Shown in pieces: positions 3,624 through 59,583 of a stretch of DNA of 64,000 nt. Every line of letters begins with the position of its first letter. The stretch's first letter is position 1. Source of the stretch: Eubacterium sp. GTDB lineage: Bacteria > Bacillota > Clostridia > Oscillospirales > Acutalibacteraceae. The notes under the pieces were generated by a model. That model saw only the letters and a program-made list of their open reading frames with translations. It made no database searches and was not told the DNA's origin. Location: assembly GCA_017886765.1 (NCBI GenBank), contig JAGHJI010000062.1, positions 1 through 64,000 of the forward strand, in the 5' to 3' direction. The position numbers and the translations under genes are program-made.

Positions 3624-4006
3624 GCGAGTTGGCTTGGCAATTGCGTACTTCCGGAATGAACGAATCTGTCAGGATGGTTGTATGAGGAAAGTCCGAGCAG
3701 CACAGAGCAGGATGACGGCTAACGGCCGCCGAGGGTGACCTTAGGGAAAGTGCAACAGAAATATACCGCCTCACATAGGTTGAAGGTTTCCGTCATCGTC
3801 GACCTGAGGTAAGGGTGGAAAGGCGAGGTAAGAGCTCACCGAGGAAGTGGAGACATTTCCTGCCATGTAAACCCCATCCGCTGCAACATCGACTAAAGGG
3901 TTGTTTGCTCGACACATAACTTTGAAGGATGGCTGGAGCGCGGGAGCAATTCCGCGTCGAGATAGATAATTGCCCACGACAGAACTCGGCTTACGGCCAA
4001 CTCGCT
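3624..4006 (+). ncRNA. rnpB: RNase P RNA (bacterial class A/B)
   Basis: GAGGAAAGTCCGAGCAGCACAGAGCAGGATG, GGGAAAGTGCAACAGAAATATACCGCC, AGGTAAGGGTGGAAAGGCGAGGTAAGAGCTCACC, 3' ACAGAACTCGGCTTACGGCCAACTCGC pairing with 5' GCGAGTTGG. Confidence 0.96.
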
Positions 4007-4038
4007 TTTATTAAATTAATTTAAATGAGGAAATACCA

Positions 4039-13461: not shown

Positions 13462-13491
13462 AATTATTGCAGACAATAGTCTGACTAAATA

Positions 13492-13634
13492 TTTTCAGGG
13501 CGGGGTGCGATTCCCCACCGGCGGTAAAAGTCCGCGACCCGTAGCAATACGGCTGAATCGGTGAAATTCCGATACCGACGGTGTTGAGATAATTTCCTAC
13601 TCGGTTGTCTCTGAGTCCGGATGAGAGAAAATGT
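13492..13634 (+). promoter_or_regulatory. FMN (RFN element) riboswitch
   Basis: TCAGGGCGGGGTGCGATTCCCCACCGGCGGTAAAAGTCCGCGACCC...GGTGAAATTCCGATACCGACGGT...AGTCCGGATGAGAGAAAATG. Confidence 0.97.
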
Positions 13635-13684
13635 TTGGCTGATTTAACAAAATATACATATCAGCCGCCGGTCAAAGCATTTGC

Positions 13685-13735: not shown

Positions 13736-14329
13736 ATGAAAAACAAAAAAATCAGAGTAATCACAGGCACGGCAATGCTGACCGCAGTAGGCGTTATACT
13801 GCAGTACATTGAAATTTCCATCCCTATCATTCCCAGCTTTATAAAACTTGATTTTTCGGACCTGCCGGAACTTATCGGCGCCTTTGCCTACGGCCCCGTG
13901 GCAGGTGTAATCATCTGTCTGCTGAGGAACCTAATTCATATGGCCGCTACCTCCAGCGCCGGAGTGGGCGAGCTGTCAAATTTCATTCTGGGCGCTGTGT
14001 TTTCCCTTGTGGCAGGATTGATCTACAAGCGCTTTAAAACAAAAAAAGGCGCTGTTATCGCCGGCGTTTCCGGCGCCGCCGCAATGGCGCTGGTCTCCCT
14101 GCCGTCAAACTATTTCCTGATCTATCCGCTTTATTATTCCGTTCTGGGCTTTCCGGAAAACGCGGTGCTTGATATGTATCAGGCTATCCTGCCCAGTGTG
14201 GAAAATATCTTCCAGGCACTTCTGATCTTCAATGTTCCCTTTACATTCGTAAAAGCGCTTATCTGCGCAATCGTCTGCATGATAATTTACAAACCGCTGT
14301 CACCGTTGCTTAAGGGTAAGAAAGATTAA
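13736..14329 (+). CDS. ribU: Riboflavin ECF transporter S component (RibU-like)
   Basis: Small hydrophobic protein directly after FMN riboswitch; LDFSDLPELIGAFAYGPVAGVIICLLRNLIH. Confidence 0.93.
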   Translation: MKNKKIRVITGTAMLTAVGVILQYIEISIPIIPSFIKLDFSDLPELIGAFAYGPVAGVIICLLRNLIHMAATSSAGVGELSNFILGAVFSLVAGLIYKRFKTKKGAVIAGVSGAAAMALVSLPSNYFLIYPLYYSVLGFPENAVLDMYQAILPSVENIFQALLIFNVPFTFVKALICAIVCMIIYKPLSPLLKGKKD

Positions 14330-57216: not shown

Positions 57217-57247
57217 AAAAGGATATCCATGCGGATATCCTTTAAAA
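57217..57247. terminator. Bidirectional terminator hairpin
   Basis: AAAAGGATATCC-atgc-GGATATCCTTTT. Confidence 0.8.
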
Positions 57248-57267: not shown

Positions 57268-58428
57268 TTATTTTACTTTTCTCTTAAGAACAGCGAATAC
57301 GCCGGCAGCGGACAGCAGAGCTATCGATGCTGAAACGGCCATCGTTTCCGAGCCTGTGCTGGGTGATTTTTTAGATGTGCTTGTTTTAGCTGTTGCGGTT
57401 GTTTCAGCCGAAGCGGTTGTTGTGGTTGTTTCATTGTTTTCTTCGGCTGCGGTTGTATTCTCTTTAGTGGGGTCTTCATCCTCAAAATCCTGCTGCATCA
57501 ACACGTCAATATAGTAATAAGACAGAGCCATCAATGCGTCGTGAGTTGCCGACTTGTTGTCCTGATCGTCATAGGTGAATATGCCGGCGCCTGAGCCTTC
57601 AAAGGTACAGAGATTTGCGTAAATTCCGTTTACCAGATCAAAGTATTCGTCAAGATCTTCCATATCCTCGCTGATATATGCGCTGTGCGCCATAAGGGCA
57701 AGAGCGGTAGAATTAGCGTTAGGCTGGGTTCCATATTGCGGATTAAAGCAGTATCCGCCGTCTGCCTTATAGGTATCTAGCACCTGGATTGCGTCCTCAA
57801 GTACACTGTCATATTTATCAGATACTAAATAAGCAAAGGACAACGTCTCAATAAAATAGGCGGTGTTGTCACAGGAATAGCCGTAATAATCTACGCCCTG
57901 TCCCATTGTGTAATATTTTTCCACATAGGTGTCGCAGACCTTCTCAATAAATTCTATTGATTCGTCGGCTTCGCAGTAAAAGGCGCCCTGTACAATAGCG
58001 CGGTAATAGCTGGGGCTTGCAGGCTCGACAGTTGGATCCATTGCAAGAAACGCGGTTTCAATGTTATAGCCGTTGAAATCCGCCGGATCTTCTCCCAGGT
58101 CAATCAGAATAGAGATGACCGCGCCGTAGGTGGCAAGGTTTTCGCCGTAGGATGAAACGATTTTTCCGCCGTTGGCGTCAAGGTTCGCCTTAACGTCGTT
58201 TAAAAATCCGTCGGCGTACTTATCAACATCTTCCATGTTTTCAGAAATGATATAAAAATCCAGCGCGTCGTCAACACCGTAGCTGGCCACACCGTCGGTG
58301 AGATATTTTACAGCGCCGTTGATCTGCTCTTCAACTTTTTCCAAAGTCGGCGCCTCGGCGGCAAATGCCGTAACGCTCGTCATCAGCATTACGCATACCG
58401 CAATGAATACAGATAGAACTTTTTTCAT
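57268..58428 (-). CDS. Secreted alpha/alpha-toroid (terpenoid-cyclase-like) protein with Thr-rich linker and sortase-like C-terminus
   Basis: Signal peptide; NGAVKYLTDGVASYG, LATYGAVISILIDLGEDPADF, PNANSTALALMAHSAYI; C-terminal SPSTGSETMAVSASIALLSAAGVFAVLKRKVK. Confidence 0.8.
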   Translation of the reverse strand: MKKVLSVFIAVCVMLMTSVTAFAAEAPTLEKVEEQINGAVKYLTDGVASYGVDDALDFYIISENMEDVDKYADGFLNDVKANLDANGGKIVSSYGENLATYGAVISILIDLGEDPADFNGYNIETAFLAMDPTVEPASPSYYRAIVQGAFYCEADESIEFIEKVCDTYVEKYYTMGQGVDYYGYSCDNTAYFIETLSFAYLVSDKYDSVLEDAIQVLDTYKADGGYCFNPQYGTQPNANSTALALMAHSAYISEDMEDLDEYFDLVNGIYANLCTFEGSGAGIFTYDDQDNKSATHDALMALSYYYIDVLMQQDFEDEDPTKENTTAAEENNETTTTTASAETTATAKTSTSKKSPSTGSETMAVSASIALLSAAGVFAVLKRKVK

Positions 58429-58476
58429 AATTTTTCCTCCTGGTGGCAGTCAGTATCTGTTCTGCCGTTTTATTTT

Positions 58477-59220
58477 CTATGTGCATGTGTAAGTAAATAC
58501 AACGCTGTCACCGTTTGAAAGGATATATTTTCCGCAGCTTTTGGACGGAGATACACCGTTTACGCTGTAAAGCCATCCGCTCTGACTGCCGCAGTCTTTT
58601 TCGTCTATATTATTGAACCCTGCCACGTATGTGCCGTAACTGCTGTTTACCGCGTTGAGATAAATGTTGTGACTGTCACAGGCTTTTTTCACTGCGTCAT
58701 ATACCGAACTGCCGTTTTTCACGGTTACGGAGCAGGTGTTTATTATATATCCGTTTGCGGGAACATATTCGTCATGACCGGCTTTCAGTTTGTCCATATT
58801 GTCAAGAATGCTTTTACATTCCACCGTTACCGTGCAGGTAATGGTGGAAGAGGTTGTAGACGTCGTGGCGCTCTTTTGTCCGGCGGATTTTTTCGTGGTG
58901 GTTTTATTTGTTTTTTTATTGGAATCAGCCGTGCTTTCGGATTCCTTTGTTTCGTTTGAGTTGCTGTTTGTTTGCGATGTATCGCCGTTGTCCTTATCCG
59001 TATTTTTGTCAGCCGTATTGCTCTCACTTTTCTGCGCGGTTGTCAGAGGTTGGTTATCCGTTTCCTTTTCCTGAGCGTCTTCGTTTTTTTCACTTGAGGA
59101 AGAAGCGGATATTTCAGCGCCGCTTCCGGTAAGACCTGTATCATCCGTCTTTCCGGCTGAACAGCCGAACATCACGGCGAGTAAAATAAAACATAAAAAT
59201 ATTGCTGTACATTTTTTCAT
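58477..59220 (-). CDS. DUF4430 (transcobalamin beta-domain-like) lipoprotein
   Basis: Lipobox-like FGCSAG; C-terminal VTVKNGSSVYDAVKKACDSHNIYLNAVNSSYGTYVAGFNNIDEKDCGSQSGWLYSVNGVSPSKSCGKYILSNGDSVVFTYTCT. Confidence 0.87.
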   Translation of the reverse strand: MKKCTAIFLCFILLAVMFGCSAGKTDDTGLTGSGAEISASSSSEKNEDAQEKETDNQPLTTAQKSESNTADKNTDKDNGDTSQTNSNSNETKESESTADSNKKTNKTTTKKSAGQKSATTSTTSSTITCTVTVECKSILDNMDKLKAGHDEYVPANGYIINTCSVTVKNGSSVYDAVKKACDSHNIYLNAVNSSYGTYVAGFNNIDEKDCGSQSGWLYSVNGVSPSKSCGKYILSNGDSVVFTYTCT

Positions 59221-59250
59221 AAAAAAAGCCCCTGTTTTCGGGCAGGGGCT
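59221..59250 (-). terminator. Riboswitch expression-platform terminator abutting the start codon
   Basis: Minus strand AGCCCCTG-CCCGAAAA-CAGGGGCT-TTTTTT-ATG; the SD-like AGGGG lies in the 3' stem. Confidence 0.85.
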
Positions 59251-59344
59251 ATACAGCGCAGAAAATATGACACGCCTTTAAGGACTTTTATAAATCCATT
59301 GCTTTCCCACTTGCCCAAAAGCTGAATTTTTTAGTGAAATATAT

Positions 59345-59545
59345 CACGTCAAACGGCAGGTCTCCCGGCTGGTGATCAGTATATCTTTTAAGATATACAT
59401 ACAAATACGCCTTCTCAGTTTCCCAATGGCATATGTATTTGTACGGGTACTCCCTCATCAGATACGGTAATGGCGGTTGCCTGAGATTCACACTCAGTTC
59501 CCTTTTCATTACGCAGACAGTTCTGCGTAAACCGTTTGTTCTATT
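59345..59545 (-). promoter_or_regulatory. Cobalamin riboswitch
   Basis: Minus-strand B12 box CCAGCCGGGAGACCTGCC (59372-59355) and upstream AAAAGGGAACTGAGTGTGAATCTCAGGCAACCGCCATTACCGTA. Confidence 0.93.
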
Positions 59546-59554
59546 GTCACTTTA

Positions 59555-59583
59555 AGTATATATTACGTTCGTCAATAAGTCAA
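59555..59583 (-). promoter_or_regulatory. Sigma-A promoter of the cobalamin-riboswitch transcript
   Basis: Minus strand TTGACT (59583-59578), 17-bp spacer, TATACT (59560-59555); overlaps 3' end of hpt. Confidence 0.65.

Follow-up and report, generated by a model that had tools for sequence, protein, structure and literature searches.

In this study, a 64,000-nucleotide stretch of DNA (the window) from a gut-type Clostridia bacterium was analyzed; the host genome comprises 1.9 Mb and is 97.9% complete. Positions 59583 to 57218 of the minus strand could be read as a single transcription unit in which a sigma-70-like promoter and a riboswitch precede the genes for a DUF4430 lipoprotein and a toroid protein, with a terminator-like hairpin at the end (Table 1), with the promoter-like element directly 5' of the aptamer. 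The surrounding genes were those for HPRT, transketolase halves and GH20, and an alpha-galactosidase-like gene. No EcfT, EcfA or S-component gene was found at this locus among the open reading frames or by Pfam search, and the locus is therefore not that of an ECF cobalamin transporter. The original prediction, that no transporter is adjacent, was thus right for this locus. An RNase P RNA of bacterial class A was also detected in the window, at 3625-4008 (+) with 269.9 bits.

Table 1. Features of the transcription unit, in window coordinates
Feature	Position	Strand	Basis
Sigma-70-like promoter, TTGACT-17-TATACT	59583..59555	-	10/12 consensus positions; consensus match alone
Cobalamin riboswitch aptamer, RF00174	59338..59551	-	83 bits, E 6.2e-19, full length 1-189
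Expression platform hairpin AGCCCCTGCCCGAAAACAGGGGCT, then T run, ending directly before ATG	59227..59250	-	
DUF4430 (transcobalamin beta-like) lipoprotein, 247 aa	58477..59220	-	PF14478, 60.5 bits
DUF4430 domain proper	58486..58713	-	Within the 247-aa lipoprotein
Secreted (alpha/alpha)6-toroid protein, 386 aa	57268..58428	-	AF2 model, L065 homology
Thr-rich stalk of toroid protein	57367..57471	-	Sequence
SPSTG sorting motif, then hydrophobic stretch and KRKVK	57352..57366	-	Sequence
Terminator-like hairpin closing the unit	57218..57243	-	Sequence

The aptamer matched the whole RF00174 model above its gathering threshold of 31.5 bits and was the sole cobalamin riboswitch found in the host genome. 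A cobalamin riboswitch ahead of the pair had been described, and it was confirmed on the same strand with a terminator/Shine-Dalgarno hairpin 3' of the aptamer. This hairpin, before the ATG at 59220, had the form AGCCCCTG-CCCGAAAA-CAGGGGCT with a T run behind it, and the AGGGG Shine-Dalgarno sequence was located in its 3' arm. Therefore, a single hairpin could both end transcription and mask the ribosome-binding site. Leaders of the same layout with other stem sequences, read by eye, were present behind the riboswitch in L053, L055, L056, L058 and L066. The leader layout fits an OFF switch. A riboswitch present by chance or owned by another gene was rejected, since no second one was found in the genome, it immediately precedes the pair in the same orientation, and it is kept in relatives with different neighbors.

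The two surface proteins

The DUF4430 protein consisted of a signal sequence ending in the lipobox AVMFGC, a low-complexity linker rich in Ser, Thr, Lys and Asn, and a C-terminal DUF4430 domain. The PF14478 match exceeded the cut-off of 23.8 bits, in keeping with the transcobalamin-like SLBB clade, and no other PF14478 protein was found in the host genome. With a profile of six DUF4430 sequences, the best match among 177,635 PDB sequences was the beta domain of transcobalamin-2 (5no0, E 0.0093). The profile also matched other transcobalamin entries (E 0.16) and intrinsic factor (0.46-0.47). Since SMC6 chains (E about 0.02) ranked above these latter entries, the profile score by itself hints at transcobalamin but does not establish the link. 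The predicted DUF4430-type lipoprotein with likeness to the transcobalamin/intrinsic factor beta domain was recovered by both the Pfam match and the top PDB match.

In the toroid protein, a signal peptide was followed by 12 helices, which led into a Thr-rich stalk and a tail with SPSTG (...KKSPSTGSETMAVSASIALLSAAGVFAVLKRKVK). The signal peptide, stalk and motif agreed with the secreted, stalked protein with a sortase-like tail that had been described from the sequence. The alpha/alpha toroid, formerly a guess, was borne out by a confident 12-helix AlphaFold (AF2) model (m7407ba352579; pLDDT 91.8, pTM 0.91), in which the alpha6/alpha6 barrel of the animal transcobalamin, intrinsic factor and haptocorrin family was present. 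The top Foldseek ranks of this model were terpene cyclases (diterpene cyclase among the best matches), GH105/GH88 and a polysaccharide lyase. The transcobalamin:CD320 entry ranked 11, intrinsic factor 36-37 and rat transcobalamin 40. The expected structural likeness to the alpha domains of transcobalamin and intrinsic factor thus held for the fold class of the model; these carriers were not singled out by the toroid fold, because terpene cyclases and GH105/GH88 scored higher.

Sequence searches of Pfam, NCBIfam and the PDB with the toroid gave no informative match, and no solved chain was matched. PF01122 (Cobalamin_bind) gave no match at E up to 1 with the whole protein or up to 10 with the domain and seven relatives. 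The distribution of invariant residues was also investigated, with inner and outer helices assigned by ourselves from the DSSP string. There were 14 invariant residues in 101 loop positions before inner helices (first helical turn included) versus 1 in 54 opposite-face positions. This skew suggests one functional face of the toroid.

The enzyme folds at the top of the Foldseek ranking, and the glycosidases among the window neighbors, could be explained if the toroid were a B12-regulated enzyme (terpene-cyclase-like or GH105/GH88-like) or an adhesin, for example a lyase freeing polymer-bound corrinoids. However, no enzyme Pfam family was matched by the window toroid or seven aligned relatives, and the linkage to DUF4430 and a B12 riboswitch persisted across unrelated neighborhoods. 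Such a role is considered highly improbable. The toroid as an ordinary enzyme had been dropped for want of an enzyme family match.

For wall anchoring, the tail of the toroid protein scored just under the cut-offs of the LPXTG models (Pfam, 14.4 vs 20 bits; TIGR01167, 14.8 vs 15.9 bits). The protein carries the signal peptide, (S/P)PXTG motif, hydrophobic stretch and positive tail of sortase-anchored proteins, and the host genome contains two sortase genes. One of them (C19:64124-64639 (-), L074:4104-4913) lies a short way beyond the window end, at a distance of about 4.5 kb from the cassette, and its product could be the enzyme anchoring the SPSTG protein. SPSTG is cleaved by SrtB of C. difficile (PMC4155245). 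Judged by these features, the toroid protein is probably linked to the wall by a sortase.

Related loci and their linkage to riboswitches

Relatives were sought in a scan of bacterial genome contigs. Seven related loci were obtained in records of Eubacterium sp. and other Clostridia. The predicted riboswitch linkage recurred among these relatives: RF00174 was present upstream in all five of the seven loci with enough upstream DNA. In a wider count, 25 of 45 toroid loci were preceded on their own strand, at no more than 6 kb, by a cobalamin riboswitch, with about 0.07 expected by chance; the 45 are the genomes with a toroid match, 33 of which had any detectable RF00174. Of 39 loci (order-level search plus G050), 33 had a same-strand DUF4430 match no more than 5 kb away. 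The genomes in these counts are related, so that the counts are not independent events, and their neighborhoods differ. L053 and L055 share the synteny of the window; L056, L058 and L059 have other neighborhoods. For the DUF4430 gene of L004/L058, the stored sequence has Ns in place of the linker (X in the translation).

The clearest link of the toroid/DUF4430 pair to a riboswitch-ECF operon was L065. Its order was riboswitch, DUF4430-TM protein, toroid+DUF4430 lipoprotein, EcfT and an EcfA-EcfA-S fusion. The lipoprotein contained the toroid and then DUF4430 in a single chain, both detected by Pfam and in the same order as in transcobalamin and intrinsic factor. The L065 toroid aligned with the window toroid family over 247 columns (hhalign E 1.3e-8), and its DUF4430 was 33% identical to that of the window. 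L060 encoded a toroid, DUF4430, EcfT (CbiQ 26 bits, cut-off 25) and EcfA; L062 encoded a toroid, DUF4430, an EcfT-like protein with no Pfam call and EcfA.

L057 and L059 each carried an N-terminal DUF4430-like domain and a toroid in one chain. The N-domain of the fusion was weakly similar to DUF4430 (hhalign P 42%), and the PF14478 threshold was not reached in either fusion by Pfam. The natural fusion of L057 was folded as a cofold proxy; its beta part had pLDDT <50 and no interface was obtained. Other arrangements were also observed. In L061, which has a PQTG anchor, a riboswitch was followed by the toroid protein first and DUF4430 second, and in L064 (2310-5429) a riboswitch preceded a 1040-aa protein holding a toroid and DUF4430. 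In genome G402 (C18, C20, C30, C35, C37, C40), RF00174 was matched nine times and several proteins carried DUF4430, numbers far above those in its relatives.

The two proteins might take part in corrinoid uptake with no joint clamp, the DUF4430 lipoprotein being the binder and the wall toroid an independent corrinoid concentrator. Their anchors differ (lipid vs wall), long linkers could hold them apart, and crystals show that the isolated beta domain of transcobalamin is able to bind cobalamin and cobinamide (PMC5599065). Such independence is at odds with the close spacing of DUF4430 and toroid at the order-level loci and with the single-chain toroid+DUF4430 proteins, as in L065, and is regarded as unlikely. 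The reading of the window pair as a split transcobalamin/intrinsic factor for corrinoid capture is supported. The bipartite capture device of the original prediction is supported by transcobalamin-2 as top PDB match, by transcobalamin and intrinsic factor among the fold matches, and by riboswitch-linked single-chain relatives.

Corrinoid supply of the host and proposed mechanism

The host genome was examined family by family. The sole detected B12-binding protein had the domains of methionine synthase MetH. Neither CobS nor a FecCD/BtuC (BtuCD-type) permease was found in the genome. The ECF set consisted of one EcfT (contig C11) with two ECF-type ATPase (EcfA) genes beside it, and six S-component-like matches. 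One of these, at window 13760-14290 (+) (PF12822, 110 bits), lies directly behind an FMN riboswitch at 13487-13636 (+) and is most likely RibU. From this gene inventory, the shared ECF module would be the simplest way into the cell for a captured corrinoid.

Instead of cobalamin itself, the ligand may also be a precursor of cobamides or some other tetrapyrrole, with cobinamide, haem and non-B12 cobamides as candidates. Burroughs et al. left "B12 or its precursors" open (PMC1796856), and cobinamide affinity varies among animal carriers (PMC5599065). However, the riboswitch family senses cobalamin, and CobS is absent from the host, so that the standard route from cobinamide back to a cobamide would be closed. 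There is a small chance that this alternative is correct.

The locus is quite probably a corrinoid-salvage unit that acts like a transcobalamin/intrinsic factor cut in two and would feed MetH by way of ECF. At low intracellular cobalamin, the riboswitch would permit transcription and translation. The cell surface would then display the membrane-tethered DUF4430 (beta) lipoprotein and the stalked toroid (alpha), probably sortase-linked to the wall. A corrinoid would be sandwiched between the conserved face of the toroid and the DUF4430 domain, and the ligand would draw both halves together near the membrane. The corrinoid would be handed to an S component of the shared ECF transporter (group II), whose genes lie outside this locus, and would end up feeding MetH. 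The riboswitch, the terminator-like hairpin, the fold or family of each protein, the surface signals and the genomic linkage were observed; corrinoid binding, ligand-induced assembly and hand-over to ECF are steps that we infer. A ligand-gated clamp is proposed tentatively, with somewhat less than an even chance: cobalamin would join the wall-anchored toroid and the membrane lipoprotein, only the loaded complex would be at the membrane for delivery to the shared ECF, and the pair would be a naturally split relative of transcobalamin and intrinsic factor.

Comparison with known systems

Burroughs et al. predicted in 2007 that transcobalamin-like SLBB domains of Gram-positive bacteria scavenge B12 (PMC1796856). 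In many cases these domains were joined to alpha/alpha toroids, and in some they were anchored in the wall and accompanied by CbiO/CbiQ genes (PMC1796856). The window pair resembles those proteins in having a DUF4430/SLBB beta-grasp and an alpha/alpha toroid that are secreted or anchored in the Gram-positive manner. It differs from them in that each domain forms a protein of its own with its own kind of tether, no transporter is local, the toroid lies outside Pfam, and the pair is under a cobalamin riboswitch; the word riboswitch is absent from the text of that paper (PMC1796856). The system is not of a wholly new kind, because this domain pair had already been predicted as a B12 scavenger, and the novelty is less than was originally assumed. 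What is new relative to the 2007 prediction is the full split, the differing tethers, the riboswitch link and the lack of a local transporter. No experimental study of a bacterial toroid/DUF4430 pair was found in the open literature, most subscription-journal papers and preprints being outside this coverage.

As for ECF-type cobalamin transporters (ECF-CbrT, PMC5997447), the related operons of L065, L060 and L062 encode EcfT/EcfA, with S in L065, beside the toroid and DUF4430. In contrast to such loci, the window locus encodes no ECF component. BtuG and BtuH are different proteins with different domains from the window pair, and belong to an outer-membrane context. As Bacteroidetes surface lipoproteins for B12 capture in gut bacteria, they are a functional analogue (PMC6143338, PMC8941943).

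Animal transcobalamin, intrinsic factor and haptocorrin share with the window pair an alpha6/alpha6 barrel and a beta-grasp DUF4430-type domain. The animal carriers are single, soluble chains taken up by receptors, whereas the window pair is encoded by two open reading frames, and its toroid has no PF01122 match, unlike the animal alpha domain. Since neither the single-chain architecture, present in L065, nor PF01122 was found at the window, membership in the animal family proper is not claimed from these sequences. Halves of the animal carriers are able to assemble from separate chains around cobalamin: human TC-alpha (with CD320) and TC-beta, expressed separately, co-elute only with cobalamin present (PMC5599065). 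If the proposal is true, the split pair would be the physiological counterpart of these laboratory halves, and these bacteria would hold B12 in the same kind of two-domain sandwich as the human carriers do and might be competitors for the vitamin in the gut lumen. Animals were proposed in 2007 to have acquired transcobalamin from such bacteria (PMC1796856), and the split pair and the in-line L065 protein make this proposal testable by biochemistry and phylogeny.
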